NCBI GenBank assembly: GCA_020072645.1
Contig: JAIQGK010000003.1
Location: 434,001 to 498,000, forward strand
Length of the DNA: 64,000 nt
Source of the DNA: Terriglobia bacterium
GTDB taxonomy: Bacteria > Acidobacteriota > Terriglobia > Terriglobales > Acidobacteriaceae
Reading direction: 5' to 3'
In this document: positions 8,036 to 56,326 of the stretch, in pieces
How positions within the stretch are numbered: the first letter of the stretch is position 1
Layout: every line of letters begins with the position of its first letter
The notes under the pieces: model-generated
The model's database searches: none
What the model was told of the DNA's origin: nothing
The model's input: the letters and a program-made list of their open reading frames with translations, nothing else
Translations under genes and position numbers: made by a program

Positions 8036-10465
8036 ATGGCGAATTTCGATTGCCTGCTAGTTGGACACAACGAGCTGGAGTTTCAGCAATACTTCAACAT
8101 TCTTGAAAACATGGCTTCTTCGGGCGGACGCGATCATGTGGCCTTTACTGACATGCAGCTCAATTGCGTTCGCTATAAGGGCAAGCCCTACCAGGCAATG
8201 GACATCCTCACCGAATTCTATAATGAGGGGCTCGACCGCAAGGACCATAAAGATTTTTACAACGGCGATTGCCTGTGGACTGGGATTACCTATCTGGGTA
8301 GCTACCTCGCGAAGCGAGGATACACATTCGATTACATCAATTTGTTTCATTGGGAAAAACAGCAGCTCAAGGAAAAGCTGAAGGCTAATAACTATGCTCT
8401 GATTGTCCTTACCGGCACAATGTACGTCTTTGAGCAGAACATTTGGGAAATTATTACCTTCATTCGTAAAGTAAAGCCGGATGCAAAAATCATTGCCGGC
8501 GGCCCGTACATCTCAAAAGAAGCCGAAGAACGGGAGCCAGAATATGTCAAGCCTCTTTTCCGTTATTTGAATGCTGATTTCTACTGCTACAGCCGCGAGG
8601 GTGAACAGACACTGGTCAAACTGATCGACGCCCTAAAAAACAACATCGACGTGAGCACTGTCCATAATATTGCTTATAAAAAAGGCAAAGACTATCTTGT
8701 CACTCCCCGCCTGCGGGAGACGAATCCGCTGGCGGACAACATGATTGATTATCCGCTGTTTGCCGAAGGGTTCGCAAAATCCGGTTGGGCCAACGTGCGG
8801 ATTTCTGATGGCTGTCCGTATGCATGTGGTTTTTGTTCCTTCCCTGAGCATGGCAATGAGCGCTATGTAATCATGAACCTTGAGCGTATCGAGCGGGAGT
8901 TCGATTCCATCAAAGCTGCTGGCACAATCACTCATATTTTCTTCATTGATGCCACCATGAACGTTCCTCCCAACCAGTTCAAGGCCATGCTGCGCATGAT
9001 GATCAGGAAGAACTATAGCTTCACATGGCACTGCTTCTTCCGCTGCGACCAGACGGATGAAGAGACCATCCAGTTAATGAAGGAAGCGGGCTGTATGGGA
9101 GTTTTTCTGGGCCTCGAATCTGCCAATGAGACGGTACTTAAGAACATGGACAAGACCGCTCACAAAGCGGACTTCCGCAGGACGATGCCCTGGTTCAAGA
9201 AATATGGGCTGCGCCAGATGATCTCCGTGCAAGTAGGCTTTCCTGGAGAAACATATGAGAGCCTGCAGGAATCGTTCGACTTTATTGAGGAAATCAAGCC
9301 CGATTACACACGAATCCAGATCTGGTTCTGTGATGCCACCACTCCTGTGTGGCGCAAGCGAGACAAATTTGCGCTGAAAGGCAAAGCGTATGGCTGGTCA
9401 CATTACACCATGAATGCCGAAACAGCCGTTGAGTTGGTCGTTCGATCGTTTATGGCTTTGGAGCATGTCTCCTGGGTGCCTGATCCCGGATATAACTGGG
9501 TTTCTTTTTACCTCAATGAGACGCGAGGCATGTCCATTGAACAGCAGAAGACCTTCATTAAATTCTTTGTCGCAGCAGCCAAGGAGAAGCTCCTGAAGCC
9601 AAACCTTAAGCAAATCTCCCCAGCGTTGCTGGAAAACTTTAAATTAAGTGCCCAGTTTGATCGCCCTGGAAAACCGGACCTGAGCGTACTTGAACCCTAT
9701 TCCGGAGCAAGGTATGTTTCTGCCGAAAAGTTCTGGCTTGATGAGTTCAGGCAGGCACGCCGGCCCGCAGCGGCCCCTAAATTGGGAAGTGGAGCATCCA
9801 CTTCAGTTGCCCGATTTGTGAACAAGCAATTACTGAATCAGCTCAGCTCGTCGTACAAGGTGGATTTTGCGGAACTGATTTTCGCCTGCTACGGCGCTTT
9901 GTTGGCCAGAACCTTGGGCCAGGACGAGGCTGTGGTGGTTGCTTCGCTGGATGACAAAGAGCCGTTCCCGGTTCTCTTCCACTCTTCTGACCAATCAACC
10001 TTCGCTGAATTTGCCCATGCCTCGAGTGAAAAGCTGCAGCAGGCGCGTATTCATCGTCTGTTTGCCTTCTTCATTCTGACGAATCCATTGCGCCTGAAGG
10101 AGTTCGGAAGCACATGCCCGTCATTTACCGCGGGCTGTGTCGTGTCGGATTCGCCAGAAGTCACTATGAGTGGGCGGCTGGAGCACTATTCAGCAGTCAA
10201 TAAACAGATAGATCTGCTGCTCAAGCTCACCACCGGAAGCGATGGTACGTCATTTGAAGTTTCCTGCCCGACGGGCCGTTACTCTCAAGCTCAAGTAGAG
10301 AAGATCGCCGAAGACCTTATGTCTGCCATGGAGGTCCTGAGCACCAATATGGACCTTAAGCTCAATAGTTTTGCCTGGGACTACACACTCGCAGAGAGGA
10401 AAGCTGCGGCAGCAGCCTCTCATCAGGTCCTCGATGTTCCCGCTGCCGTACAACAGGAAAGCTGA
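8036..10465 (+). CDS. Cobalamin-type radical SAM enzyme fused to a half condensation-like domain
   Basis: 809 residues. About 1-210 form a cobalamin-binding-like alpha/beta domain (FDCLLVGHNELEFQQYF; IIAGGPYIS) like that of PhpK-type class B radical SAM methyltransferases. About 240-480 form the radical SAM barrel, with the cluster motif CPYACGFC (Cys260, Cys264, Cys267) and a downstream GLES motif. About 560-790 resemble the C-terminal half of an NRPS condensation domain (EKFWLDEFRQ; FAELIFACYGALLARTLGQDEAVV), lacking the HHxxxDG half. The family alkylates or rearranges unactivated carbons. Here the half-domain may dock the enzyme on a carrier-bound substrate, most likely that of the adjacent A-T protein 26 bases downstream. 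The ATG at 8036 has GGAGAAG upstream and fits family N-termini; the frame extends back to a TTG at 7988. Confidence 0.8.
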   Translation: MANFDCLLVGHNELEFQQYFNILENMASSGGRDHVAFTDMQLNCVRYKGKPYQAMDILTEFYNEGLDRKDHKDFYNGDCLWTGITYLGSYLAKRGYTFDYINLFHWEKQQLKEKLKANNYALIVLTGTMYVFEQNIWEIITFIRKVKPDAKIIAGGPYISKEAEEREPEYVKPLFRYLNADFYCYSREGEQTLVKLIDALKNNIDVSTVHNIAYKKGKDYLVTPRLRETNPLADNMIDYPLFAEGFAKSGWANVRISDGCPYACGFCSFPEHGNERYVIMNLERIEREFDSIKAAGTITHIFFIDATMNVPPNQFKAMLRMMIRKNYSFTWHCFFRCDQTDEETIQLMKEAGCMGVFLGLESANETVLKNMDKTAHKADFRRTMPWFKKYGLRQMISVQVGFPGETYESLQESFDFIEEIKPDYTRIQIWFCDATTPVWRKRDKFALKGKAYGWSHYTMNAETAVELVVRSFMALEHVSWVPDPGYNWVSFYLNETRGMSIEQQKTFIKFFVAAAKEKLLKPNLKQISPALLENFKLSAQFDRPGKPDLSVLEPYSGARYVSAEKFWLDEFRQARRPAAAPKLGSGASTSVARFVNKQLLNQLSSSYKVDFAELIFACYGALLARTLGQDEAVVVASLDDKEPFPVLFHSSDQSTFAEFAHASSEKLQQARIHRLFAFFILTNPLRLKEFGSTCPSFTAGCVVSDSPEVTMSGRLEHYSAVNKQIDLLLKLTTGSDGTSFEVSCPTGRYSQAQVEKIAEDLMSAMEVLSTNMDLKLNSFAWDYTLAERKAAAAASHQVLDVPAAVQQES

Positions 10466-10491: not shown

Positions 10492-12399
10492 ATGCAACCT
10501 TCGAGCTCTGAACTACAGGTGCTGACCATCGACTCTCAGCACCAGATGATGACGGAATGGAACAACACGCACGCTGATTATCCCAGTGACAAGTGCATGC
10601 ACGAGCTGTTTGAGCAGCGCGTCTCCGAGACACCCAGCGCGGTCGTCGTGGTTTGCGGGTCCCGGCAATTGACGTATCAGGAATTGAACCAGAAAGCGAA
10701 TCAGTTGGCGAACTACTTGCGGAAACTGGGAGCGGGCCCAGACGTTCTTGTGGGTATTTGCATGCATCGTTCGCTGGAAATGATCGTCGGAATTCTGGGT
10801 ACACTCAAGGCCGGCGCTGCCTATGTTCCCCTTGATCCCGGCTATCCGCAGAAGCGTCTGGCATCGATGATGGAAGACGTTGATTTGCGAGTGTTGCTCA
10901 CCACCCGTGATATGGCAGCTGTCTTGCCGGAGACCAAGCTGAAGCAGGTATGTCTGGACAGTGAGTGGCCGCAGATTGCCGGGGAGAGCGGCGACAATCT
11001 GCCAGCGACGACATCTGTAAGAAATCTGTGCTATGTCATCTTCACCTCCGGATCAACCGGGAAGGCAAAGGCTGCGGCCGTCTTCCATGGCGGCTGGACC
11101 AATCTGATGCACTGGTTTGTCACCGAGTTTAATATCGCGCCGGTCGACAAGGTGCTGGTGATCAGCTCTTTCAGCTTTGACATAACTCAAAGAAGCATTG
11201 TTATGCCCCTGATTACGGGAGCACAACTACACCTGCTGGCCTCACCTCACTACGATCCTGCATTGATTCTGCAGACGATAGCGGAGCAAGGCATCACCCG
11301 CATGAACTGCGCTCCCAGCACTTTCTATCCCCTGGTTGAGAATTCAAGCAAGGCTTTTTCCAAGCTGAGTTCCTTGCAGACATTATTTTTGGGCGGCGAA
11401 GCCATTTCCGCCTCGCGGATCCGCGAATGGGCTCAGTCTCGCGAGTGCAATGCGAAGATAGCCAACGTGTATGGCGCCGCGGAGTGCAGTGATGTCTCCA
11501 CTTTCTATGTGTTGAAGAACTATGACAAGTATGTAGAGAGCTCCGTTCCTATCGGAAAGCCCATCTTCAACACACAGGTCTACCTGCTGGATGATTCGCT
11601 GAATCCTGTGCCTTCTGGACAAGCCGGAGAGATCTGCATTGCCGGCGATGGTGTTGGCTCCGGCTACATCAATGATCGCGCGTTGACAGAACAAAAATTT
11701 GTCGCCAATCCCTTCAACACCGGATCATCCCCCCGACTTTACCGCACCGGAGACCTCGGAAAGTTTTCGTCCGATGAGAACCTGGAATTTATTGGCCGGG
11801 TTGATCACCAGGTGAAATTGCGGGGATTCCGTATCGACTTGGGCGATATCGAATCCAATCTGCGCCAGCACAAAGAAGTAAAAGAAGCTGTGGTATTAAG
11901 CAAGACATTCAGCGAGCAGGACCAACGTTTGGTTGCATTCGTGGTGCCGCGGCATCGCGGCGGCTCGCGTGACCAGACCGGAAGCCAATTGAGGTCTTTC
12001 TTGAAGGAACGGCTGCCTGAGTACATGGTGCCAAATGATGTAGTTATTCTCGAGGAAATGCCGCTAAGCCCCAATGGCAAGACCGACCGCAACGTCTTGT
12101 TGAGTATGGATATTCTCGCCATGGGCACGAAGGCGGGACCAGAAGAGCCCCAGACTCCTGCGGAGCACGACCTTGCAGCCATTTTCGCCAAAGTATTGAA
12201 ACTCGAACGGGTCGGAATCATTGATAACTTCTTCGACCTGGGCGGACATTCATATCTGGTTACTGAAACCCTGGGCTGCATTGCGGATCACTTTCATGTG
12301 AATCTGTCGATATTTGACTTCCTTGCCAACCCCAGAGTTACGGATCTTTTGAAGCGCATAGAAGAAGTGCAACAGGAAGACGCAGTTTTGGAGCATTAA
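10492..12399 (+). CDS. Free-standing NRPS adenylation-carrier (A-T) protein
   Basis: 635 residues: an adenylation domain (about 30-530) and a carrier domain (about 560-630) with the phosphopantetheine Ser at about 587 in LGGHS. There is no condensation or release domain, so it activates one amino acid and holds it for modification. The core motifs deviate: the P-loop reads SGSTGKAKA rather than ...PKG, and motif A5 reads YGAAE instead of YGPTE; the A10 Lys (NGKTDR) is present. Specificity residues picked by eye give D-I-R-N-F-G-V-D-V-K, which I cannot assign. The ATG at 10492 follows GGAGAGA with 8-base spacing. It lies directly after the radical SAM fusion and before a cupin and an aldolase-like gene, which suggests it carries their substrate. 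Confidence 0.85.
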   Translation: MQPSSSELQVLTIDSQHQMMTEWNNTHADYPSDKCMHELFEQRVSETPSAVVVVCGSRQLTYQELNQKANQLANYLRKLGAGPDVLVGICMHRSLEMIVGILGTLKAGAAYVPLDPGYPQKRLASMMEDVDLRVLLTTRDMAAVLPETKLKQVCLDSEWPQIAGESGDNLPATTSVRNLCYVIFTSGSTGKAKAAAVFHGGWTNLMHWFVTEFNIAPVDKVLVISSFSFDITQRSIVMPLITGAQLHLLASPHYDPALILQTIAEQGITRMNCAPSTFYPLVENSSKAFSKLSSLQTLFLGGEAISASRIREWAQSRECNAKIANVYGAAECSDVSTFYVLKNYDKYVESSVPIGKPIFNTQVYLLDDSLNPVPSGQAGEICIAGDGVGSGYINDRALTEQKFVANPFNTGSSPRLYRTGDLGKFSSDENLEFIGRVDHQVKLRGFRIDLGDIESNLRQHKEVKEAVVLSKTFSEQDQRLVAFVVPRHRGGSRDQTGSQLRSFLKERLPEYMVPNDVVILEEMPLSPNGKTDRNVLLSMDILAMGTKAGPEEPQTPAEHDLAAIFAKVLKLERVGIIDNFFDLGGHSYLVTETLGCIADHFHVNLSIFDFLANPRVTDLLKRIEEVQQEDAVLEH

Positions 12400-12489
12400 C
12401 CCGAGTTAACACGTTCTGAAGCCCGCTGAATCACGTTGGTCGATTGAACTTCAGCGACATCTGTAAGTCCATACAGAAAGGAAAGAACG

Positions 12490-12768
12490 ATGGCCTTGCT
12501 CGCAGCGAACACCGAACATCATCGGCACATACATGAATCGTTACTCGCTGTCGTCAAGAGCAAGGGGCGTGTGCTGGTGGGTGATTTCGCCGTCGAGGCT
12601 GGACCCGGAGATACGGTGTTTGTCCCGCGATGGTCGATGCATCAGACCCAGAATGCAACGGATGAACCCATGGAACTTCTGGCGGTTACGGATTATGGCC
12701 TCACGAGGCAAGCGTATCTCGGCGATCATCTCCGTACCGCGAGGATGAATTCCAGAACGCGACGTTGA
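12490..12768 (+). CDS. Small cupin-domain protein
   Basis: A 92-residue single-domain cupin. Motif 1 is HRHIHE (His11, His13, His15, Glu16) followed by KGRVLVGDF. Motif 2 is PGDTVFVPRWSMHQTQN, with the conserved Pro, His and Asn. Enough ligands remain to bind a metal. Small cupins act as dioxygenases, isomerases or binding proteins; the reaction here is unknown. It has a good AAAGGAAAG ribosome-binding site and lies 90 bases after the A-T protein in the front operon. An action on the carrier-bound or released amino acid, or on a small precursor, is inference from position only. Confidence 0.75.
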   Translation: MALLAANTEHHRHIHESLLAVVKSKGRVLVGDFAVEAGPGDTVFVPRWSMHQTQNATDEPMELLAVTDYGLTRQAYLGDHLRTARMNSRTRR

Positions 12769-12842
12769 TTCGAAGTAGACGTCAAAAAAAGGTTTGTGAG
12801 ACAGACTTGAATCCAATGTGACTTTCCGGTTCAGTCTTCAGG

Positions 12843-13643
12843 ATGTGGATGGTTATGCTACGTATAAGCCAGGCGATAAGTCATTTCCCAAAGCGACTGG
12901 GCCACAACTGGTTGGATTTTGCCTCATGGCAGCGGCTGCGCGAACGATTGAGATCGAAAGAGAAACGCAGCTGCGAGCAGTTGGTCGATTTTGGCAAGCT
13001 GCTCCATCAGCAGACATTTGTGTCCGCCACCGACGGTAATTTGTCGCTTCGTCTTGATGACCGTCGGATTCTCGCCACGCCAACCGCGATCGGAAAAGCG
13101 ATGATGCGCGTCGGCGATATGGTCATCGTGGATGGAGACGGGGTCAAACTCAAGGGGAGTCGGGATGTTTCCAGCGAGATTGAGATGCATCTGACAATTT
13201 ACAAACTACGTCCGGATGTTCAAGCCGTGGTGCACGCGCATCCTTGTACGGCGACCGCATTTGCCTGTGCGGGTATTGCATTGGATGAGCCCTTGTGCTC
13301 AGAACTTGTCATGACCCTGGGCGCCGTGCCGCTGGCGCCTTATGGCACCACCGGCACCTCTGAACTGAGTGAATCGCTGCTGCCCTACATCCCATATAAC
13401 AATGCAATATTGATGGCAAATCATGGAGTGGTCGCATATGGCAAGAGCCTGTGCGAGGCGTATTACAGGATGGAAGCGGTAGAGCATTTTGCGCGGATTA
13501 TGTTAGGGACGCGGCAGATAGGCAAGCAGACTTTGTTGGATGAAGTCAAAATTCAGAAGCTACTGCAAGCCAAGAACCGCTATAGCGTGTCCGCCTTCGG
13601 ATCAGGCAAGCAGGATCGTAGACGTTCTGTTGCTGGAAATTGA
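12843..13643 (+). CDS. Class II aldolase/adducin-family protein
   Basis: About 266 residues in the fuculose-phosphate-aldolase fold: FVSATDGNLSLRL, then SEIEMHLTIY, then the metal pair HAHP (His131, His133) and a third His at about 194 in ANHGVV, with the catalytic acid likely in SEIE. Family members make or break C-C bonds of hydroxy-aldehydes through a bound zinc, or act as epimerases or decarboxylases. The first 40 residues are not typical and the true start may be at a later Met or Val; no strong ribosome-binding site is seen. It follows the cupin by 74 bases. In this setting it may supply or process an unusual building block, or be a metabolic passenger. Confidence 0.7.
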   Translation: MWMVMLRISQAISHFPKRLGHNWLDFASWQRLRERLRSKEKRSCEQLVDFGKLLHQQTFVSATDGNLSLRLDDRRILATPTAIGKAMMRVGDMVIVDGDGVKLKGSRDVSSEIEMHLTIYKLRPDVQAVVHAHPCTATAFACAGIALDEPLCSELVMTLGAVPLAPYGTTGTSELSESLLPYIPYNNAILMANHGVVAYGKSLCEAYYRMEAVEHFARIMLGTRQIGKQTLLDEVKIQKLLQAKNRYSVSAFGSGKQDRRRSVAGN

Positions 13644-13828: not shown

Positions 13829-14323
13829 ATGAACCTTGGCTTATCGTGGTATGCAATTCGCACAAAACCTCGCCAGGAGGAACGGGCGGTAGAGAATCTG
13901 ACCTCCTGGGGAATAACAACGCTGGCGCCCCGGATCAAGAAAACCAGCGCCTGTCGCGATTCACACTTGTTCCCCGGATATATATTCGCGCGCTTTGAAG
14001 GCCCCAAGATGCTGCACAATATCCACTTTACCCGTGGAGTCGCTTATGTTGTCAGCTTCGGCGGAGTTCCGTCTGCGATTAGCGATGAATTAATTGCCGA
14101 AATTCATACCCGCATAGACGAGAACGGCTTTGTCATCCGCAATACGCCTGCCTTGAGTCCGGGTGACCACGTAGTCATAAGATCAGGCTTTTTGCGTAAT
14201 TTTGTAGGAGTATTCGAACGGGATTTATCGGGAAGTGAACGCGTGCAGATACTTTTGCACACCGTGTCGTACAGCGCTCATGTGGAAATGTCCCGGTCAG
14301 AAGTGGCAAAACTTGCTAGTTAG
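13829..14323 (+). CDS. NusG-paralogue transcription antiterminator (RfaH/TaA type)
   Basis: A 164-residue NusG-family protein: an NGN domain (WYAIRTKPRQEERAVENL, LFPGYIFARF, then TRGVAYVVSFGG) and a C-terminal KOW domain (about 110-160, PGDHVVIRSGFLRNFVGVF). The TRGV...V.FGG.P segment is closer to RfaH and to TaA of myxobacterial antibiotic clusters than to housekeeping NusG, which usually carries longer linkers. Such paralogues load on RNA polymerase at the start of very long operons and prevent premature termination. It sits immediately upstream of a 6,716-codon gene and some 40 kb of collinear genes, a setting that fits this role well. It is the last gene of the front operon. Confidence 0.85.
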   Translation: MNLGLSWYAIRTKPRQEERAVENLTSWGITTLAPRIKKTSACRDSHLFPGYIFARFEGPKMLHNIHFTRGVAYVVSFGGVPSAISDELIAEIHTRIDENGFVIRNTPALSPGDHVVIRSGFLRNFVGVFERDLSGSERVQILLHTVSYSAHVEMSRSEVAKLAS

Positions 14324-14512
14324 CGGGTGTGCCGAGGTGCTTGAGCTTTGCGGCAACTTTGCCGAGTCCCAGACGCGCCATATGCTTTCAGCCGAAGAGG
14401 AATTGCGAACTCTCCTTTCGGTGTTCGACCGGTTGGAACTTCACCGCATTACCGCACCGGAGAATGCGTGAGCCCAAACGTTTTATTTAGATCGTTGCTT
14501 CCAAATTGAATT

Positions 14513-14528
14513 GATAGCCATGGCTATC
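14513..14528. promoter_or_regulatory. 16-bp perfect palindrome upstream of the main synthetase
   Basis: GATAGCCATGGCTATC is a perfect 16-base inverted repeat, 190 bases after the antiterminator gene and 177 before the large synthetase. As DNA it looks like an operator for a dimeric regulator; as RNA it could form a 6-bp stem with a CATG loop. No T-run follows. Confidence 0.4.
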
Positions 14529-14626
14529 CCTTCATCTCATCATTTGGCGATAACGAACCCAACGGGAAACGAAATGAACACCTCTGCGGTTGATTGGGAT
14601 ATCGCCTCCCATCAACCGGAACACAG

Positions 14627-14671
14627 CCTCAACGTGCTTTTGAAATCAGCGCGCTGTTAAGCGTGTTGAGG
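14627..14671 (+). promoter_or_regulatory. Leader hairpin before the giant synthetase gene
   Basis: CCTCAACGTGCT (14627-14638) pairs with AGCGTGTTGAGG (14660-14671) to give a 12-bp stem, 7 perfect pairs plus two G-U pairs. The loop contains a perfect 10-base palindrome CAGCGCGCTG (14647-14656). It ends 34 bases before the ATG at 14706. No T-tract follows, so it is not a classical terminator. The position suggests a target for the antiterminator or an attenuator. Confidence 0.4.
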
Positions 14672-14705
14672 GGAACGTGTAACTTAACCATCCGCTCTTA
14701 AGACA

Positions 14706-17700
14706 ATGCCAAATAATTTTAGTAACTTGAATGAACTGCTTCTCTGGCGGACGGAGCACAGTTCCGGCCAACCGGTCCTGACCTTTCTTCAGAACGGCGA
14801 GAAGGAAGAGGTTAACTGGAACTATGAGGAATTGACGCGCCGTGCCTGGTCCATCGCTGCGCTTTTGCAATCATCCGGTTCCTCTGGAGAAACCGTACTG
14901 CTGCTGTATCCTCCCGGACCGGATTTCATCGCTGCGTTCTGGGGGTGTCTGGCCGCGGGAGCGATTGCGGTACCGGTTTATCCTCCGCGATCGAATCGCA
15001 ATCTACTCCGGCTTAAGGCGGTAATCCAGGACTCGCAGGCCCACACAGTTCTTACCACGCGACAGACGCGGGCCAAAGTCGCTCCTTTCGCGGACCTTGA
15101 TCCTCAGCTTGGTTCTCTCCGATACCTGACAACCGATGACTTGGCCCAGGACCTTGTCCGCGAATGGAAACCACCAAACGTAACCGGAGACTCGATCGCG
15201 TTCCTGCAATACACTTCTGGATCTACCGCGACCCCCAAAGGCGTCATGGTAAGTCACTCCAATCTCTTGGAGAACGAGGCCCTGATTCAGGAGGCATTTC
15301 GTCAAACTGAAAAGTCTGTGGTTGTCGGTTGGCTTCCGCTTTATCACGATATGGGGCTCATCGGGAACATGCTCCAGCCAATCTATGCGGGCGCCCGCTG
15401 CATCCTCATGCCGCCCATGGCATTTTTGGAACGTCCCTTCCGCTGGCTAAACGCGATAACACGTTACCGGGCAACAACCAGCGGCGGTCCCAATTTTGCT
15501 TATGACCTGTGCGTTCGAAAGATCGCTGAAGAAAATCTGTCCACGCTGGATTTGAGTAGCTGGGAAGTCGCCTTCAATGGCGCCGAACCTGTACGCGGCC
15601 AGACAATGAGAAGGTTTGCGGAGAGATTCAGTCCGGTCGGCTTCAAGTCAAAAGCCTTTACTCCTTGTTACGGCCTGGCTGAGGCGACCTTGCTTGTTTC
15701 CGCTCAAGCAACGGAAGACGAGCCGCTGATCGCGGAGCTCGATACGGATGCCTTAGGGCGCCATGAGGTGCGCTTTCCATCTGACGAAAGCGGCGTTACG
15801 CGGGTCGTTAGCTGCGGCCAACCGGCGCGAGGGAGTACCGTGAGGATTGTTGATCCGGAAACACTCCTTCCATGTTCGCCCAATCAGATCGGAGAAATTT
15901 GGGTCTCTGGTCCGAGTATGGCTCTCGGTTATTGGAATCTACCGGCAGAGACCAAACATACATTCCAGGCTCAAATGCTCGGAAGCGACGACGGGTCGTT
16001 CCTGAGAACGGGGGACCTTGGTTTTCTGCGTGATGGACAGCTCTTTGTTACCGGCCGGTTGAAAGATCTCATCATCATCCGTGGGCGCAACTATTATCCG
16101 CAGGGTATTGAAGAAACCATGGCAACGGCCCATCCTGCGTTGCGGGTCGGATGTGGCGCAGCCTTTGCAATCGAGAAGGACCGAGAAGAGCAACTGGTAT
16201 TGGTGCAAGAGGCGACCATTCGTTCAGATGACGAACTGGACAAAGCCATCCAGAGCATTATCCGGAATATTGCTGACGTCCATGAATTGAGCGTCCATTC
16301 CATCGTCCTCATACAGTCAGGCACGCTACCCAAAACTTCCAGTGGCAAGCTGCAACGGCACGCCTGTAAGAAGGATTTCCTGAATCAGCGACTTGAAGTC
16401 TTGAGAGAGTGGCGCGATACAGCAGAGACGAGACAAGCTCCTCAGGCAAGACGATCCCAGGAGCCAGCCAAGAGAAGTGCTGTAGAGACATGGGTGATTG
16501 AGGAATTAGCCAGACGAACAGGAATCGAGCCGGCCGAAGTTGATGTGCGTCAGCCGCTCATGGGTTTTGGGTTGAATTCTCTCACTGCCGTCGAGCTTTG
16601 CCACAATCTTCAGGTACGTTTTGGCGTTGAGATCGCCAGCGCGGACGTTTTTGATGGGTTAACCATCGCGGACATCGCGAAGAGGACAAATAAGGTAGCT
16701 CCGCTCTTAACCAAAAGCCATGCGGAACAGCCCTCCACTTATCCGCTTTCGCATGGTCAACGAGCGCTGTGGGTCTTGCATCAGATGGCGCCTGAAAGCG
16801 CTGCCTATAACATTTCGCGCGCCATCAGGATCACTACTGGCGTGGATATTGAGGCGCTCCGGCGCGCATTACAGGCGCTTGTTGATCGCCATCCCTGCCT
16901 GCGCACGGTGTTTGTGGACACCACGGGCGAACCGGTCCAGCAAGTTGCCGATAAAGCTGAGGTTTGTTTTGAATATTTTGATGCCGCTTCCTGGAGCGAA
17001 ACAGAACTCGGGAAAAGGCTGGTCGAGCAGAGCCATCGTCCCTTTTCCCTGACACAAGGGCCACTGTTTCGAGCCGCTGTTTATGGCAGATCGGATAATA
17101 ATCACCTGCTGCACGTTGCGGTGCATCACATTATTGCCGATTACTGGTCTCTTACCCTGCTTCTGGAGGAAGTCGGGAAGCTCTACCAGGCATATCACAG
17201 CAAAGCGGAACCGCAACTGCCTCCGTTGGAATGCAGTTATGCGAACTTTGTGGAATGGCAGCGCGAGAATCTTGCCGGTCCTGAGGGAGAACGGCTCAGG
17301 AGCTATTGGAAAGAAGAGCTGTCAGGAGAACTGGCGCCTCTTAGCCTGCCCGCAGATCATGCCCGTCCTCCAGTCCAGACATTTCATGGATATTCCTTTC
17401 CATTTGTTCTCGAAAGCGAGTTAACCGAAAAGCTCAAATTATTTGCGGCTGAGCACCAGACAACGCTCTTTTCGGTGCTTCTGGCGGCCTTTCAAATCCT
17501 GTTGTATCGCCTGACCTCGCAAAAGCAAATTACTGTCGGATGCCCGGTAGCCGGTAGATCGAGAGCGGAATTTGCGAATACCGTCGGCTACTTCGTCAAT
17601 GCCGTGCCTCTGCGGGCGGATTTCCAGCAGCGCCAGACATTCACCGATTTCCTTTCTCAAATTCGTCAACGGGTTCTGCATGCCTTTGCGCATGATCAAT

Positions 17701-46116: not shown

Positions 46117-49100
46117 ATGACATCGTCCCTATCTGATCTCCGCCAGTCACCGGCAGAGGAAGTGGTCTTTTTCCCTGCGTCATTTGCCCAGCAAAGATTG
46201 TGGTTTATCGATCAACTCATCCCTGGGAAAGCGACCTACAACATACCCGGTGCGTTACGGATACGAGGGAAGCTGGATGTGGACGTATTGGAGAAGGCGT
46301 TGCAAGAAATTGCGCGCCGGCATGAGACGCTGCGCACGCGCTTTGTGGCGGTGCGGGGCGAGCCGCAGCAAGTCATTGAGGATCAAGTCAATGTTCGGCT
46401 GCAAATTCTGGACCTAACCGGTATAGCCGGAGAAGAGGAACGAGAAGCAGAAGCTATGCGGCTGGCGCGGGAAGAGGCGCAACAGCCGTTTGATCTCCAG
46501 CAAGCACCGTTGATGCGGGGAAAGCTGTTGTGGCTGGGCGGGCTGAACCATGTGCTTCTGTTTACCATGCACCACATCATTTCTGATGCCTGGTCCATGG
46601 GAGTACTGATCGGAGAAGTATCGGTTCTTTACGACGTATTTAGTGGAGGCCGGTCTTCACCCTTGCCGGAACTGCCTATTCAATACGCAGACTACACCGT
46701 CTGGCAACGGGAGTGTCTGGAAGGAGGGATGCTGGAGCGGCAACTGGCGTATTGGAAACAACAGTTGGCAGGCGTCAGTATGTTGCAGTTGGCCACCGAC
46801 CGGCCCCGGCCCACCTCACAGAGCCAAAGGGGGACCGTGTGCGAGTTTGTGATAGAGGTAAACGTTACGAGCCAACTGAAGAAGCTGGCCCAGGAGCAGG
46901 GCGCAACCTTATTTATGGTGCTGCTGGCAGCCTTTCAAGCGCTGCTTTGCCGTTACACATGCCAATACGATATAGCAGTGGGAACGCCGATCGCGGGGCG
47001 GAGCAGCAGTGATACGGAAAGATTGATTGGCTTCTTCGTCAACACTTTGGTGCTCCGAGTGGACCTTTCCGGGACGCCGAGCTTTATCGAACTGCTGCAG
47101 AGGGTAAGGAAAGTGACGCTGGAAGCTTACGCTCACCAGGATATTTCCTTTGAGAAGCTGGTCGAGGTCATATCGCCGGAACGGAATCTGGGCAGCACGC
47201 CACTTTTCCAGGTGATGATCGGCTTGCAAAATGCGCCGCAGTCTGACCTCCGACTGGGCGCCGCGGAACTCCAACCCTTTAGCAATTTTGATAATGGGAC
47301 ATCGAAATTCGATCTGTTGCTGCAACTCGGAGAAGATGGAACCGGAAAACTGGCCGCTGCGCTGCAATACAACACAGATCTCTTTGCTGCCGCATCCATT
47401 GGCCGGATGATCGATCATTATCGGGCATTGCTGACCAGTATCGTCACCAACCCATCCCAATCTATTGACGTGCTTCCGCTCATGGCTGCCAATGAGCGCA
47501 AACAGGTTATCGAGGAATGGAACCGGACAACTGTAGAGTTTCCGCGAAGAAAGTGCTTGCCCGGCCTGATTGAAGAACAGGCCGCCAGAACCCCAGAAGC
47601 GATGGCGGTTGAGTATGAAACAGTGCAACTTCGCTACCACGAATTGAATGCTCGCGCTAACCAACTGGCTTGGCGGTTGAAGGAGTTGGGTGTCGGACCA
47701 GAGACGCGCGTCGGTGTGATGGTGGAACGGAGCCTGGAGATGGTGATCGGTCTGCTGGGTGTGCTAAAGGCCGGAGCCGCCTATGTTCCCCTGGATCCGG
47801 ATTATCCACCCGAGCGATTGAGCTACATGTTTGAGAGTTCGCAGGTCAAAGTGTTGTTGACGCAGCAGCGCCTGCGGCAACAGCTGTCTCACGTTGCCGG
47901 CCCGGTGCTTGTTTTAGATGGAGCGGAAGAGCAGAGGCGGATCACCGAGCAGAAAACCGAGAACCCCGATGTGAATTTGCTGCCGGAGAACCTCGCCTAC
48001 ATTATTCATACGTCCGGATCCACCGGCCGGCCTAAAGGAGTCATGAACACCCACGGTGGGCTGCTGAACCGGCTGCTGTGGATGCAGGAAGAGTACCGAT
48101 TAAAGTCCGAGGATGTCGTGCTGCAGAAGACCCCATTCAGCTTCGATGTTTCGGTGTGGGAATTCTTCTGGCCTCTTATGGAAGGGGCGAAGTTGGTAGT
48201 GGCCCGGCCAGGCGGACATCAGGATCCCGGATATCTGGCCGCACTGATCGAGGAGCAGCAGATCACGACGCTGCACTTTGTCCCCTCGATGCTGGCGGTG
48301 TTTCTCGATGAGGAGAGGCTGAAGCAGTGCAGAAGTCTGCGGCGGGTGGTGTGCAGCGGTGAAGTCTTACCGGCTGAGCTCGCGCGCCGGTGCCTGGCCG
48401 GCATGCCATGGGCAGAGCTTCATAATTTGTATGGTCCAACTGAAGCGGCGATCGATGTGACGTACTGGAAGTGCATGGCGGAGGATAGCCACAGCAGCGT
48501 GCCCATCGGCAAGCCGATTGCGAACATACGGGTCTATGTGGTGGATGAGGGGATGGAGGCCGTGCCAGTGGGAGTGCCTGGAGAGCTGTGTCTCGCAGGA
48601 GTCGGGCTGGCCAGAGGGTATTGGGATCGGGGTGATCTGACGGCAGAGATGTTCGTTCCAGACGGGTTGAGCGGCAGAAGCGGAGAGCGGCTTTATCGGA
48701 CCGGCGACCTGGCGCGATGGCTGGAAGATGGCAACCTGGAGTTTCTGGGGCGTGCGGATCATCAGGTCAAGATTCGCGGATTCCGCGTTGAACTTGGTGA
48801 GATCGAAGCGGCGCTGGAGGAGCATGACAGCGTGCGCCAGGCCGTAGTAATAGCGCGCGAAGATACAACCGGGGAGAAGCGGCTGGTGGCTTATGTAGTA
48901 ATTGAGGCGGTAGATAACAACAATGACCAGCAAAGTACAGAATGGCTGTGGATGAATAGCTTACGTGAGTATCTGCAGGCAAAATTGCCGGAGTATATGG
49001 TGCCGGCGTTATTTGTCCAGCTTCATGAGTTCGAGCTTGATTTCAACGGGAAGATTGATCGCCGCGCACTCACCGCAATCTCAACCCAAACAATGCGGCG

Positions 49101-50826
49101 CGATGAAGCCTATGTAGCGCCGCGGACACCACAGGAAAAATTTCTCGCAGAGCTGTGGGCTGACATATTGCGCGTTGAGCGGGTTGGAATCCACGATAAC
49201 TTCTTCAGGCTTGGCGGCCACTCTCTCAGTATTACTCAAGTCATCGCGCGTATCCGTGAAGCTTTGAGTCTGGAGTTGCCGGTCCAAGCCATGTTTGAAC
49301 AGCCGACGATAGCAGCTTTGGCAAAGAAACTTCAGGATGCCGGTGGGATAAATGACGGTTTTGCTCCTCCGCGAATAACGCGTAGCTCGCGTAAAGAGCC
49401 GCTTCCACTTTCTTTCGCGCAGCAACGGCTCTGGTTCCTGGATCAGATTGAGCCGGGAAGCCGCGTACACCATATTCCTACCCTGTTGCGCCTGAAAGGA
49501 TCCTTGAACATTGAAGTCCTTTCCGCTGCTCTGGATGAAATCGTTCGGCGTCATGAAATTCTTCGTACCAGTTTTCCGGCGGTTGACGGTTACCCATATC
49601 AGAAGATCTCGCCTCCTGCGCATGTGCCCATTGAAAAGGTTGACCTGCGAGACGTGCCGCAAGAGTTCCGGGAGGAAAAGCTGCGCAGGTTGGCAGATGC
49701 GCACATCCAGAAGCCGTTTGATCTGACCCATGGCCCCATGTTCCGCGTAGCACTATACGTGACGGAAGAGCAGGAGCATGTCCTTTGCCTTACTGTGCAC
49801 CATATCATCTGTGATGCGTGGTCTGTGCCTATCCTTATAAGAGAGCTCAATGTCCTCTACAGCACATTCCTGGACCATGGCACGTCTCCTCTGCCGGAAT
49901 TGCCGCTGCAATACGCGGATGTGGCGGCATGGGAGCGGGCGTGGCTCCGCGACGAGGTCCTCGAGCGCCACGTCCAGTATTGGCGGCAAACCCTGGAGGG
50001 TGCTCCGCAATCTCTCGAGCTGCCAACCGACTTCCCACGCCCTTCCGTGCGGTCGCTTGATGCCGGCAGGAGCACGCTATGTTTGTCTCCTCAACTCTAC
50101 TCGGAACTGACGAAACTCAGCCAGCAGCTCGGCGCCACAGAATTCATGACCTTGCTCGCCCTTATGAATGTCTGGCTATTCCGTTACAGCGGGCAATCAG
50201 ACATCCTGATAGGTTCTCCAGTTTCAAACCGCACCCAGCTTGAGACGGAAGGATTGATTGGCATCTTCTTGAACACCGTAGTCTTCCGCACCAGATTTGA
50301 TGCTCAATTACGGTTCACGCAGCTCGTCGATCAGGTCCGTCTCAACGCCGTCGCCACTTATGCCCATCAGGCTCTGCCGTTTGAAAAGTTGGTTGAGGAA
50401 TTACAAGTCGTGCGCGATCCGGGAAAAAATCCGGTGTTCCAGGTCATGTTCAACATGCTGGCTAAAATCAACGATAAGCTGGAATTTGCCGGCTTGGTAA
50501 ATAGCAAAGCTATAGAAACAGATGCCGGACAGGCGAGGTTCGATCTTCACCTGAATGCTTTCCCCACCGATGCTGGCCTGGAATTGGCACTGACCTATAA
50601 CGGCGGTCTGTTCCAGCAATCAACCATCACTGGCATGTTAGAAACCTTTGCGGAGTTAGTCCGCGTGATCGTCGAAAACCCTGAATTAACTATCTCTGAG
50701 CTGCTGGAGAAAGCTATGCGCTTTGAGCAGGAAAGCGAACTCGCGCGTAAGCGTGGCCAATCCCAGCAACAGGGACAACAATTACGCACCGTTCGGCGGC
50801 GCGCAGCTTTGAACGAATCGAGGTGA
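46117..50826 (+). CDS. NRPS C-A-T-C (Ser-like module plus orphan terminal C domain)
   Basis: 1,569 residues: C7 (about 15-455, HHIISDAW), A7 (about 468-985, code DVWHVSLIDK, Ser-like; A3 motif HTSGSTG with His for Tyr), T (Ser1036), and a second C domain (about 1092-1535, HHIICDAW) with no adenylation domain after it. The extra C domain must work with the next protein, whose own first domain has lost the HHxxxDG residues. The C-terminal 25 residues are Gln/Arg-rich and may be a docking tail. The first two domains are a recent copy of the previous gene. It is followed at once by the oxygenase gene, whose ribosome-binding site overlaps this stop codon. Confidence 0.9.
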   Translation: MTSSLSDLRQSPAEEVVFFPASFAQQRLWFIDQLIPGKATYNIPGALRIRGKLDVDVLEKALQEIARRHETLRTRFVAVRGEPQQVIEDQVNVRLQILDLTGIAGEEEREAEAMRLAREEAQQPFDLQQAPLMRGKLLWLGGLNHVLLFTMHHIISDAWSMGVLIGEVSVLYDVFSGGRSSPLPELPIQYADYTVWQRECLEGGMLERQLAYWKQQLAGVSMLQLATDRPRPTSQSQRGTVCEFVIEVNVTSQLKKLAQEQGATLFMVLLAAFQALLCRYTCQYDIAVGTPIAGRSSSDTERLIGFFVNTLVLRVDLSGTPSFIELLQRVRKVTLEAYAHQDISFEKLVEVISPERNLGSTPLFQVMIGLQNAPQSDLRLGAAELQPFSNFDNGTSKFDLLLQLGEDGTGKLAAALQYNTDLFAAASIGRMIDHYRALLTSIVTNPSQSIDVLPLMAANERKQVIEEWNRTTVEFPRRKCLPGLIEEQAARTPEAMAVEYETVQLRYHELNARANQLAWRLKELGVGPETRVGVMVERSLEMVIGLLGVLKAGAAYVPLDPDYPPERLSYMFESSQVKVLLTQQRLRQQLSHVAGPVLVLDGAEEQRRITEQKTENPDVNLLPENLAYIIHTSGSTGRPKGVMNTHGGLLNRLLWMQEEYRLKSEDVVLQKTPFSFDVSVWEFFWPLMEGAKLVVARPGGHQDPGYLAALIEEQQITTLHFVPSMLAVFLDEERLKQCRSLRRVVCSGEVLPAELARRCLAGMPWAELHNLYGPTEAAIDVTYWKCMAEDSHSSVPIGKPIANIRVYVVDEGMEAVPVGVPGELCLAGVGLARGYWDRGDLTAEMFVPDGLSGRSGERLYRTGDLARWLEDGNLEFLGRADHQVKIRGFRVELGEIEAALEEHDSVRQAVVIAREDTTGEKRLVAYVVIEAVDNNNDQQSTEWLWMNSLREYLQAKLPEYMVPALFVQLHEFELDFNGKIDRRALTAISTQTMRRDEAYVAPRTPQEKFLAELWADILRVERVGIHDNFFRLGGHSLSITQVIARIREALSLELPVQAMFEQPTIAALAKKLQDAGGINDGFAPPRITRSSRKEPLPLSFAQQRLWFLDQIEPGSRVHHIPTLLRLKGSLNIEVLSAALDEIVRRHEILRTSFPAVDGYPYQKISPPAHVPIEKVDLRDVPQEFREEKLRRLADAHIQKPFDLTHGPMFRVALYVTEEQEHVLCLTVHHIICDAWSVPILIRELNVLYSTFLDHGTSPLPELPLQYADVAAWERAWLRDEVLERHVQYWRQTLEGAPQSLELPTDFPRPSVRSLDAGRSTLCLSPQLYSELTKLSQQLGATEFMTLLALMNVWLFRYSGQSDILIGSPVSNRTQLETEGLIGIFLNTVVFRTRFDAQLRFTQLVDQVRLNAVATYAHQALPFEKLVEELQVVRDPGKNPVFQVMFNMLAKINDKLEFAGLVNSKAIETDAGQARFDLHLNAFPTDAGLELALTYNGGLFQQSTITGMLETFAELVRVIVENPELTISELLEKAMRFEQESELARKRGQSQQQGQQLRTVRRRAALNESR
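46133..48862 (+). repeat. Duplicated C-A module DNA, copy 2
   Basis: This is the partner of 42757-45485. The copies share order, reading frame and long identical runs, so they arose by tandem duplication of one C-A-T unit or have been homogenised since. The T domain and everything after about 48870 diverge: the A10-T segment here is unlike copy 1. Confidence 0.8.
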
Positions 50827-50831
50827 AATCC

Positions 50832-51878
50832 ATGAAAACCGCATCTGCTTTGCTACCAAAGGTCACAGGGCTGCGTAAAGCCAGAAAGCTCAGCCAGGAC
50901 GATCTGGTGCAGACCGAGAGACTACTTCCTGAAACAGACCTTCCTCTGGCCCTGCTGCCCACTGTAGAAGACCTGGATTTGATCTCCTGGGCCGGTACAC
51001 ATCGTGAATTCATTCAATCTTTATTATTGCGACATGGCGGGTTGCTGTTTCGGAATTTCCGGATTTCCTCTGCTCCCGAATTTCAACAATTCGTTACCGC
51101 AGTCTCAGGCGAGCCGCTTGCGTATAAAGAGCAAACATCGCCACGGAGCCGGGTGGAAGGGAACATCTATACCTCGACGGAGTATCCGCCCGAACACATC
51201 ATTTTTCTGCATAACGAAAACTCATATTCTTCTACATGGCCCCTGAAAATCATGTTTTTCTGCGTAACCGCGCCTCAGGAGGATGGGGAGACGCCGATTG
51301 CCGATGTGCGCCGTGTTTTAGCGCGTATACCGGAGAAGGTGCGTGAGCGCTTCGCTCGCGATGGCTGGATGCTGGTCAGGAACTTCGGCACCGGATATGG
51401 CCTCCCATGGCAGACGGCATTCCAGACCGAGAGTAAAGAGGAGGTTGACCGGCACTGCCTTAAGAATGGCATTCAAACCGAGTGGCTTTCCGGAGACCGC
51501 CTGCGCATCCGGCAACGGCGCTGCGCGATTCGCCGGCATCCCGTGACTGGAGAAACCGTGTGGTTCAACCATGCGACCTTCTTTCATGTTTCTACCCTCG
51601 CGCCGGAAATCCGTGCCGGGCTTCAGGCCGATCTGGCCGAGGAAGACCTTCCTTACAACACTTACTACGGCGATGGCAGCCGGATCGAGCCTGACGTCCT
51701 GGATATTCTCCGCGATATTTATCAACAGGAAACCATCAAGTTTCCCTGGCAGGAACATGATCTGCTGCTGCTGGACAACATGCTCGTGGCCCATGGTCGC
51801 TCAGCGTTCCGAGGCCCGCGCAAGATCATTGTCGGTATGACCGAACCTTATTCAGGCGATCAGGAGAACTCATTATGA
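50832..51878 (+). CDS. TauD/SyrP-type Fe(II)/2-oxoglutarate oxygenase, likely Asx beta-hydroxylase
   Basis: A 348-residue TauD/TfdA-family oxygenase. The facial triad is visible as HNE (His127, Glu129) with the distal His321 in AHGR, and the 2-oxoglutarate Arg is likely Arg330 (RGPRK). The use of Glu in HxE, the FLHNENSY context and the HGRSAFRGPRK end resemble SyrP-type enzymes, which hydroxylate the beta-carbon of carrier-bound Asp. The next gene encodes a degenerate C domain and an Asn/Asp-type adenylation domain, its natural partner. The frame opens at GTG 50823; the ATG at 50832 has GAGGTGA at 5-base spacing and is preferred. It overlaps the next gene by ATGA. Confidence 0.85.
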   Translation: MKTASALLPKVTGLRKARKLSQDDLVQTERLLPETDLPLALLPTVEDLDLISWAGTHREFIQSLLLRHGGLLFRNFRISSAPEFQQFVTAVSGEPLAYKEQTSPRSRVEGNIYTSTEYPPEHIIFLHNENSYSSTWPLKIMFFCVTAPQEDGETPIADVRRVLARIPEKVRERFARDGWMLVRNFGTGYGLPWQTAFQTESKEEVDRHCLKNGIQTEWLSGDRLRIRQRRCAIRRHPVTGETVWFNHATFFHVSTLAPEIRAGLQADLAEEDLPYNTYYGDGSRIEPDVLDILRDIYQQETIKFPWQEHDLLLLDNMLVAHGRSAFRGPRKIIVGMTEPYSGDQENSL

Positions 51879-54800: not shown

Positions 54801-56326
54801 TTGGAAAGGAAAGCGTCAATGTGGATGACAATTACTTCGTACTGGGGGGCGATTCACTGCGAGTCATACAGGTAGTCCACGAGGCGCGGCGCTATGGGAT
54901 AAGCATTCGTGCTATGGATGTCCTGCGCTGTCAGACGATTCGTAGTTTACGCAAGGCGCTCCAGCAGGAGCGCCGTTACGAACTCTTTCCCGATGGTGTT
55001 TCAGAGGCCTTGTTGCCGGAACTGGATATTTCTTTGTTGCCTTCTGACGTCATTGATTTTTATCCCATATCTGGAATTCAAACTTTTGTATTGCAGAAGT
55101 ATGCAGAAAATCAGGGCGCAGATGGCATTTACCACATCCAGGAATGCTTCCATCTTGAAGATCAGAATTTTTCCAGGGATCTCCTGGAGGCTGCTTTTAA
55201 GGCGGTCATAAATCGTCATCCGATTTTAAGGACAGTTTTTTACCTCAAAAGCTCTCCGCCGTTGCAATGCGTGAGGAGTGCATTGCCTTGGAAAATAATT
55301 ACTACGGATATTTCTCATTTGGATGGCGCTGCTCAAGATGCTTACATTGCAGACCAGGTCAAAGCCGATCGGATAAGCCTTTTTGATCCAGCCAACATGG
55401 ATGCGCCGCTGTTTCGCATCGTTGTATTTCTCCGCTCAGCCACCCAATTCAGCGTGTTGTTTTCCTGCCATCATGCCATTATGGATGGTTGGGGACATCA
55501 GATCTTTCTCAACCATCTGCTGCAGGCATATGCAGACATAAAATCCGGCAGGACTCCTGATCTCGGAAGTCCCGATGGCACTTATCATGAATTTGTTAAC
55601 TTTGAACATGCGGTCGCCCATTCGGAACAGGCTGCAAAATTCTGGCGTTCCTATTTACGGGACGTGCAGTTCCCGCCTCTCCCCGATTTTGTTTTGCCCG
55701 CTTTAGCTGAGACGAATGATCCAATTGTCATATCGAAGCTTGAGCCGGAGCAGAACCAGGCATTGGAGCGCATTGCGCAGCAGCATGCTGTCTCCATGCA
55801 GGCGCTGCTGCTCGCCGCGTGGTTGGAACTCTTGCGGCAGTGGTCGGGTGGTCCAGTGGTGACAACCGGAGTGATCTCCAACGGCAGATCAGAATATCTG
55901 GCCGATCCTCTCTCGGCAGTCGGGCTCTTCTGGAATGTAGCGCCAGTCGTTTCACGTAAGAAACTCCCGCTATTGGAGCAAGCGGAGATTGTACAGAAAG
56001 ATCTGATAGATATTCAGCCGTATGCTTCTTATCCACTTACAGAACTCATTAACGATAATGGCGGACAAGAGCTTTTTTATTCAGCGTTCAGGTATTTGAA
56101 TTTCTGGAACTCAAAGGAAATTCCGGAGGAAAGCGGATTACGCTTTGTGGGTGCTTATGTGGTCGATCGGTATCCGTTCGCATTAACTTGCACTGCAGCG
56201 ACCGGTCCTGACGGACGATATATTCAGCTGGAATACAATTCAAAATCGATTTCTCTGGGGTTCGTTAAGGACCTCCTGAGCTCCTACAAGAATTTATTAG
56301 GGGAACTAACCCAAACTGTTAAATGA
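51875..56326 (+). CDS. NRPS: degenerate (interface-like) C - A(Asn/Asp) - T - C
   Basis: 1,483 residues. The first C-like domain (about 10-440) reads SSGLCAD at 141-147 where HHxxxDG is expected, so it cannot condense. Such domains are known as interface domains that recruit TauD-type Asp hydroxylases. The A domain (about 453-950) uses an AADLGHT form of motif A4; specificity residues give D-L-T-K-V-G-E-V-G-K, close to Asn (DLTKLGEVGK) and Asp (DLTKVGHIGK). T has Ser994 in LGGDS. The last domain (about 1040-1482) is a C domain with intact HHAIMDGW and no partner after it. No thioesterase or reductase follows, so this C domain probably releases the chain by condensation with an amine, alcohol or internal nucleophile. 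Confidence 0.88.
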   Translation: MTSTAQLQVESPEGFRVSPQQRRLWGFIQQNPQVAFCAQCHVRITGPLSAERLDEAIRSLRSMHEILRTRFVVLPGTKAPVQVIGDVAAGLNEQRSVALESAVESIAEVLRDQARYTAADSGVNFTLLHVSDELHSLLVTSSGLCADATALVAMIRQLRNTYSSDPLEGSETLQYADISEWQNQILEGEAKKHDCYWKVADFSELRFPHLPFERRNSESVNFTPGVLVRDFTNRISLSTVTRQAGAPTEAVLFAIYQLLISRLSSLEQFLIGVTVDGRTPAELRDAIGLFAKPMPVAATLEQDQTFVQFVQKVSTALELARYEQAYFDAETFLSAESPQRCRLPLVFNVSPATPLPPVGTIDWEITSLEERLEPFELMLTVDIENGYLKALKFAWNKSIFDEQEITFIAEYYTDFLSQVTADPARSLRDFTLSSAMVSPLLVAKSVEESAAHGVYAWIEEQCARVPQRVAAVCGDQQITYAELNRRAALLAARLRKIGAAPDTVIAIVAQRSLDFIVAIFAVLKSGAAWLPVDPDTPAERIKYMIAQSAAIAALVENGTDPAWQRLNIPIIHIDEPHGDTNTVQASEIKILPEQLAYVIFTSGSTGNPKGVAIEHRQLMAYVRALRADLDLPDGASYALVSTMAADLGHTPVFAALTSGGCLHVIPSTNSRDMTALAEYFQRTPVECIKIVPAHLQALCQAFPAEATFSCRVFVVGGEPLTWELTQMVQKIAPGCRVVNEYGPTETTVGVIAASAKPEKECFNTAEAPIGWPRAGVSAYVLDQSLTAVPAWVPGDLYIGGNHVGRGYIGATDLTAERFLPDPFQSIFGARMYLTGDRARRRSDGALEFLGRTDGQVKVRGYRIELSEVEAVLCRHPHVQAAIAMVIPDKNGGKLLAAWVAVGQDKVLPQELRRFVSDSLPSYMVPNVFTCVDRFKLTPNGKVDRRGLSPAAEPSGGAGVPVDEIEENLLAVWRKVLGKESVNVDDNYFVLGGDSLRVIQVVHEARRYGISIRAMDVLRCQTIRSLRKALQQERRYELFPDGVSEALLPELDISLLPSDVIDFYPISGIQTFVLQKYAENQGADGIYHIQECFHLEDQNFSRDLLEAAFKAVINRHPILRTVFYLKSSPPLQCVRSALPWKIITTDISHLDGAAQDAYIADQVKADRISLFDPANMDAPLFRIVVFLRSATQFSVLFSCHHAIMDGWGHQIFLNHLLQAYADIKSGRTPDLGSPDGTYHEFVNFEHAVAHSEQAAKFWRSYLRDVQFPPLPDFVLPALAETNDPIVISKLEPEQNQALERIAQQHAVSMQALLLAAWLELLRQWSGGPVVTTGVISNGRSEYLADPLSAVGLFWNVAPVVSRKKLPLLEQAEIVQKDLIDIQPYASYPLTELINDNGGQELFYSAFRYLNFWNSKEIPEESGLRFVGAYVVDRYPFALTCTAATGPDGRYIQLEYNSKSISLGFVKDLLSSYKNLLGELTQTVK

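Follow-up and report, generated by a model that had tools for sequence, protein, structure and literature searches.

Within the window, by which is meant the whole 64,000-nucleotide stretch of DNA analyzed here, the gene P0001 (8036..10465, + strand) encodes an 809-aa protein in which a radical SAM enzyme is fused to half of an NRPS condensation (C) domain. The next gene, which starts 11 bp past the end of P0001 (10477..12399, + strand), encodes a stand-alone A-T protein whose sequence starts within the C-A linker and which carries the A-domain code DIRNFGVDVK. Among Pfam families, this neighbor matches those of A and T domains and, weakly, profilin, and no others. Farther along the window lie two C domains that may use the product of the A-T protein in trans: the C-terminal C domain (49390..50703, + strand) of the C-A-T-C protein at 46117-50826 and, as a second candidate, the divergent C-terminal C domain (55112..56314, + strand) of the C-A-T-C protein at 51875-56326. 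Also present are a carbamoyltransferase gene (56979-58817) within the NRPS-PKS region and, directly before a 6716-aa NRPS-PKS gene, a gene for a NusG-family protein (13829-14323), possibly an operon-specific antiterminator.

The radical SAM enzyme

Residues 1-548 of P0001 constitute a cobalamin radical SAM enzyme near the PhpK family. Specifically, the best NCBIfam model is TIGR04479 (PhpK-type radical SAM P-methyltransferase), which matches residues 5-511 with 564 bits, below the curated cut-off of 600 bits that is passed by the relatives L017 (651 bits), the sister of the window enzyme, and L174 (673 bits). Pfam recognizes Radical_SAM and, under the cut-offs, a B12-binding domain and the C-terminal part of Condensation. 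The B12-binding match, at residues 77-165 (8264..8530, + strand), is weak (25.3 bits against a cut-off of 32.1) and is accompanied by a structural match to TsrM; the fold of the enzyme part matches cobalamin enzymes in structure comparison. The radical SAM cluster motif CPYACGFC (8813..8836, + strand), read from the sequence, contributes Cys260, Cys264 and Cys267, and its CxxxCxxC pattern is invariant across 37 aligned rows. Among the structural kin are CysS and TokK, both of which, to judge from the titles of their entries, were solved with pantetheinylated ligands. The reaction of the window enzyme is most likely a C-methylation. A pathway of the phosphinothricin type was considered and rejected: the three PEP_mutase matches of the genome all lie on other contigs, and none on the contig of the window.

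A related radical SAM gene is present in the congener G001. In Pelosinus fermentans JBW45 (L041, 6678-13295; L038, 2429-14844), about 31 kb of the chromosome holds eight radical SAM genes of the same family, and these two loci yielded no A, C or T domain.

The half condensation domain

The C-terminal portion of P0001 (residues about 553-783; 9692..10384, + strand) was identified by profile, fold and structure matches as a half condensation domain (half-C), consisting of the C-terminal lobe only. AlphaFold2 folds this segment as the C-lobe of an NRPS condensation domain (mean pLDDT 90, pTM 0.90) and predicts it confidently together with the enzyme part (pTM 0.90), and the half-C matches the C-lobe of the X-domain structures 4tx2 and 4tx3. 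The HHxxxDG motif is absent from P0001, and profile comparison gives no match to an N-lobe. The protein ends in a low-confidence tail (10385..10462, + strand) without the FxF motif seen in relatives. The original prediction, made from the sequence, of a cobalamin-type radical SAM protein with Cys260/264/267, ending in half of a condensation domain that lacks HHxxxDG and lying next to a stand-alone A-T protein, is therefore borne out by the TIGR04479 match, the motif and the fold matches for the enzyme, by profile, predicted fold and structure matches for the half-domain, and by Pfam and the 11-bp spacing for the neighbor.

Recurrence of the fusion

A profile scan of genome contigs with a three-row alignment yielded 78 loci, retained from the best 80 of 475 confirmed places. 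Among these loci, the window and the same-genus genome G004, C-terminal extensions of more than 190 residues occur in 11 distinct proteins, nine of which carry a half-C (eight by group profile comparison and L055_2335 by its own match). A tenth fusion was found in L174, from an uncultured Clostridia genome. With ten such proteins spread over three phyla, a sequencing error, the objection anticipated for the single gene, can be dismissed. Among plasmid records, none of the 106 matching records reached 80 percent query cover in one place, and no fusion was found.

Two Pseudomonas members were rejected as fusions. The extensions of L030 (10001-12232) and L057 (10001-12253), from P. veronii / P. 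lini, are 221 and 238 residues long, and profile comparison relates neither to any part of a C domain; this is a different C-terminal extension of about 220-240 residues. The pair is left out of the fusion count yet bears the label EXT in the enzyme tree. The member from G004, L014, represents a second radical SAM/half-C gene of the window's genus and lies near a FAAL-like A-C-A-T NRPS; by sequence reading, its vicinity appears to include two carbamoyltransferases, two acyl-CoA dehydrogenases and an SbnA/SbnB-like pair.

Half condensation domains on A-T proteins

In many NRPS loci of the relatives, the downstream A-T protein opens with a C-lobe-only half-C while the upstream NRPS protein closes with a complete C domain, and a half-C at the start of the A-T protein is commoner than one on the enzyme. 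Both proteins bear a half-C in L017, L019, L020, L060 and L174. A model made from 20 A-attached halves scores such halves far above a full-C model (e.g., 331 versus 164 bits in L039), as it must by construction, these halves being its own seeds. When the half-C alignment was used to scan 396 Acidobacteriota genomes, C-lobes of full C domains were also caught; two places stand out, at 263 and 228 bits, with the next at 197 bits, and places at or below that score were taken, on score, to be full C domains. One of the two is L060, and the single clear new place is L126. Over a line of 205 bits, set by eye and used later, 29 half-C matches, with tailed enzymes between, were counted in 16 regions (L157-L172) of G489 (Candidatus Aminicenantes CS4-C025), a genome of 10.4 Mb in which NRPS genes are very numerous. 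L048, once a candidate for a tailed C protein without a half-C, was rejected as such when a half-C was found in a different frame ahead of the A-T gene; the different frames of half-C and A-T (11646-12326) mean either that the two are distinct genes or that the assembly contains a frame break.

One feature that sets the halves apart from full C domains is the segment crossing over towards the N-lobe, which in our reading corresponds to the floor and latch loops of C domains treated in the available part of PMC11186497. Its length was compared among 20 full C domains (33-41 residues), 20 A-attached halves (16-25) and 10 enzyme-attached halves (15-31), and the shortening in the halves would fit a domain adapted to existing without its other lobe.

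The enzyme-attached halves are strongly diverged. When the window half-C is compared by BLAST with the other enzyme-attached copies, E values run from 8e-15 to 2e-6 for L055, L017, L174, L019 and one L020 half, and are 0.02, 0.4 and 3.5 for L060, L009 and the second L020 half; the last three are no closer to it than full C domains are (best E 0.02), and the best A-attached half is found at 0.9. In the enzyme tree, 10 of the 11 rows labelled as extended, the Pseudomonas pair included, fall in one clade of 22 rows, and the window enzyme and L017 are sisters (SH-aLRT 100). In a tree of the halves themselves, nine of the ten enzyme-attached copies fall outside the group formed by A-attached halves and full C domains, on very long branches whose joins may be false. 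This separate grouping speaks for an old fusion, with the qualification that long branches may attract one another.

Divergence of this kind could also be expected were the half-C a functionless remnant, left when a gene fusion was followed by loss of the N-lobe. Seven copies are just 17 to 22 percent identical to that of the window, and a true half-C is found in only 8 of the 22 rows of the enzyme clade, as such an origin would allow. Nonetheless, the lobe is entire, folds with high confidence, has been kept in three phyla and possesses a shortened crossover segment, and the separate grouping of nine of the ten enzyme-attached halves, long branches notwithstanding, speaks for an old fusion. 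Taken together, these features make a remnant very improbable.

C-terminal tails

A [D/E]FxF-like motif forms the C-terminus of upstream C proteins in the relatives and of many of their radical SAM enzymes. In a first set of loci, on which the motif was defined and whose counts are consequently no independent test, the tail is found on 9 of 18 genes directly before a half-C start; for genes ahead of NRPS starts of other kinds, the count is 2 of 45 (Fisher 8e-5). The tail is present on 13 of 17 C-terminated NRPS proteins that precede a radical SAM gene, on 1 of 46 T-terminated NRPS proteins and on 16 of 599 background ORFs. The nine untailed pairs include L060, where FSF is followed by further residues, and enzymes whose upstream C protein bears the tail instead (L039, L059, L063); in many of them, the enzyme belongs to one Acidobacteriota clade and the tail is on the upstream C protein. 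A second set comprised 20 regions of two half-C-rich genomes, chosen for their half-C matches and examined with a slightly stricter tail pattern. Here, tails precede 25 of 33 half-C starts and none of 19 other NRPS starts (Fisher 3e-8), or 22 of 29 half-C starts once four pairs (three of them tailed) on three contigs that repeat first-set loci are removed, and tails also precede tailoring enzymes. Most tail counts come from two genomes and do not represent independent events.

The tail is not confined to radical SAM enzymes. In L126, a stand-alone C domain (tail DEDTFDF) is followed by a CmlA-type diiron hydroxylase (PF18456, tail SEDDFDF) and then by a half-C-A-T protein. Neither such a tail nor an adjoining half-C was found for four further CmlA-like proteins, including one encoded in the window (61221-62891, in the NRPS-PKS region). 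Judged from these sequences, the tail goes with gene position rather than with enzyme family. In the Aminicenantes genome, the tail is further borne by B12 radical SAM enzymes of other kinds and by proteins resembling U32 peptidases. The latter, of about 390-420 codons and with FxF-type tails, are encoded inside NRPS operons (L158, 12627-13796; L159, 8404-9585; L168, 11970-13226). A half-C-A-T gene in L162 is preceded by a gene (14302-16218) for a B12-type radical SAM protein that opens with a CDGSH iron-binding domain and closes with an FxF-type tail, and in L021 a YhcG/DUF1016 nuclease-like gene (11741-12859) sits between a tailed radical SAM gene and its half-C-A-T gene.

A tailed C protein, expected for L017, is found nowhere in the 58.9 kb downstream on its contig. 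AlphaFold2 was run on a tail-linker-half-C construct with a 50-row alignment; the half-C folds well, the tail remains under pLDDT 50 and no confident docking is predicted, a result that counts against simple docking as far as it goes for one construct with a short linker and no other tail rows, judged by confidence and secondary structure.

Since halves at A-T starts co-occur with C-terminal tails, borne both by the enzyme and by a separate C domain, the half-C would seem to receive tails rather than bind carriers. The window itself differs from this pattern: an FxF-type tail is found on none of its + strand ORFs of at least 250 aa, and the half-C model finds no second half-C within the window and none opening the neighboring A-T protein. 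Because both tail and A-attached half are absent, the window protein may contact A or T directly. In this more specific form of the earlier idea, the window half-C would contact the neighboring A (or T) domain and rebuild in trans the platform of C-lobe and A domain, with the radical SAM domain in the place of the N-lobe and no need for a tail. The A-T protein does begin inside the C-A linker, where a C-lobe would finish, and the half-C folds confidently with the enzyme (pTM 0.90). Nevertheless, the nearest BLAST relatives of the window half-C are other enzyme-attached halves and not A-attached ones, and the five loci in which both proteins bear halves argue against regarding the enzyme half as just the piece that the A-T protein lacks at its start. 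Direct contact is consequently considered rather unlikely, if a serious contender.

A-domain codes and substrate

The code DIRNFGVDVK of the window A domain is identical in L017, and that of L174 (DLKNFGTDIK) is near to it, for which reason these three enzymes probably act on a common substrate. The codes of other partners we take to be those for Asn (DLTKIGEVGK), an aromatic residue (DASTIAAVCK), Val, Ile, Glu, Tyr and others. Across 27 hand-chosen pairs, enzyme similarity correlates with similarity of the partner A code (r 0.305, equaled in 0 of 5000 permutations), and in 14 of the 27 the nearest enzyme has at least 8 code letters in common, compared with a permuted mean of 2.8 and maximum of 10. 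Another A domain is present in 25 loci; there, r is 0.279 for the partner, versus a mean of 0.045 and a maximum of 0.254 for a randomly drawn other A domain (300 draws). Common descent of enzyme and partner contributes to this correlation.

These data bear on the proposal that the substrate of the enzyme is either a free amino acid or a peptide already released, the half-C being a leftover or a general peptide-binding or stabilizing part. A precedent exists in DscE, which methylates released discodermins in vitro according to the available part of PMC12858407. In the present family, by contrast, enzyme similarity follows the adjacent A-domain code but not those of other A domains, and it is to the adjacent A-T protein that the enzymes are linked by tails and half-C domains, such that action off the assembly line is improbable.

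A proposed docking system

Domain identity and fold, recurrence of the fusion, association of tails with half-C domains and the tracking of A codes by enzyme similarity are all computed features of these loci. The reading we prefer, with a probability of roughly 0.45, is that they reflect a docking system for on-carrier tailoring before condensation, in which the half-C is a non-catalytic docking module and the window a reduced form; physical docking, on-carrier timing, methylation and substrate are what we infer. In relatives, the working unit would be [..T-C~FxF] / [tailoring enzyme~FxF] / [half-C-A-T]. Firstly, the T domain would be loaded by A. Secondly, the tailed enzyme would dock on the half-C and modify the aminoacyl-T, after which the tailed C domain would dock on the same half-C and condense the peptide. 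An enzyme with its own half-C could be both receptor and ligand, giving a chain of proteins, and the window would have kept the half-C on the enzyme, with the tail and the A-attached half-C absent. Of the original suggestion that the half-domain docks the enzyme on the carrier, docking for on-carrier radical chemistry survives as the best reading, while carrier binding proves too narrow given the halves at A-T starts and the C-terminal tails of the relatives.

More broadly, and more tentatively still, the half-C may be the receptor of an undescribed NRPS docking class, in which [D/E]FxF tails bring C-domain proteins and unrelated tailoring enzymes in turn to one and the same half-C-A-T module, the amino acid being altered on the carrier ahead of condensation, and radical SAM/half-C fusions serve as adaptors, docked on and docking. 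The users of the tail would then include several B12 radical SAM families, the CmlA-type hydroxylase and U32-like proteins. If true, the docking system would account for how members of this large family of B12 radical SAM enzymes locate assembly-line amino acids, would make tail and half-C start a readable mark of on-carrier tailoring in unexplored clusters, and would offer a portable docking pair with which to add trans tailoring to peptide synthetases.

Comparison with known systems

In sequence family, the enzyme part is close to the PhpK-type P-methyltransferases (TIGR04479), from which it differs in that the half-C is not in the model, the score falls below the cut-off of 600 and the contig holds no PEP-mutase match; the partner A codes look like those for amino acids rather than phosphinates. 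Identity to CysS, TokK and TsrM, cobalamin radical SAM methylases of solved structure, is low (12-20 percent), and those entries do not name a half-C. On-carrier hydroxylation by a trans enzyme on a stand-alone NRPS module is the case of CmlA/CmlP. Likewise, CysJ acts in trans to hydroxylate Asn bound to CysH, a stand-alone NRPS module, as described in the available part of PMC7966384; the chemistry of both systems is different, and that part mentions neither half-C nor tail for CysH/CysJ. DscE, from the NRPS pathway to discodermin, is also a B12 radical SAM enzyme and catalyzes C-methylation; it was shown to act on released peptides in the part of the report available (PMC12858407), which does not mention a half-C.

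With regard to docking, siderophore beta-hydroxylases and their interface domains are cited in PMC12230676, in the part available, and X domains of glycopeptide synthetases are inactive condensation-superfamily domains that recruit trans tailoring enzymes (PMC8949500, available part). The C-lobe of the X domains 4tx2 and 4tx3 is what the window half-C matches, but X domains are two-lobed, lie inside the synthetase and recruit P450s, whereas here a single lobe sits on the enzyme or opens the A-T protein. The interface domains, in work by Reitz in 2019, are reportedly a whole condensation-superfamily domain tied to a trans tailoring enzyme; the pairing is common to both systems, and by that description the whole domain sets them apart from the half-C. 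In SLiM/beta-hairpin, COM and PAX docking, a short C-terminal motif is recognized by the N-terminal part of the next protein, as is proposed here, and SLiM tails occur on oxidases too (PMC9113145, available part); the receptors there are a small beta-hairpin domain, a helix hand or a helix bundle, in contrast to the 250-residue half condensation domain proposed here. Neither a half-C docking class nor a radical SAM/half-C fusion was found in the open-access literature, where absence is weak evidence. Among the single elements, on-carrier tailoring, SLiM docking and recruitment by domains of the C superfamily are already known; a half-C in the role of receptor and a radical SAM enzyme fused to a half-C did not turn up in that literature.
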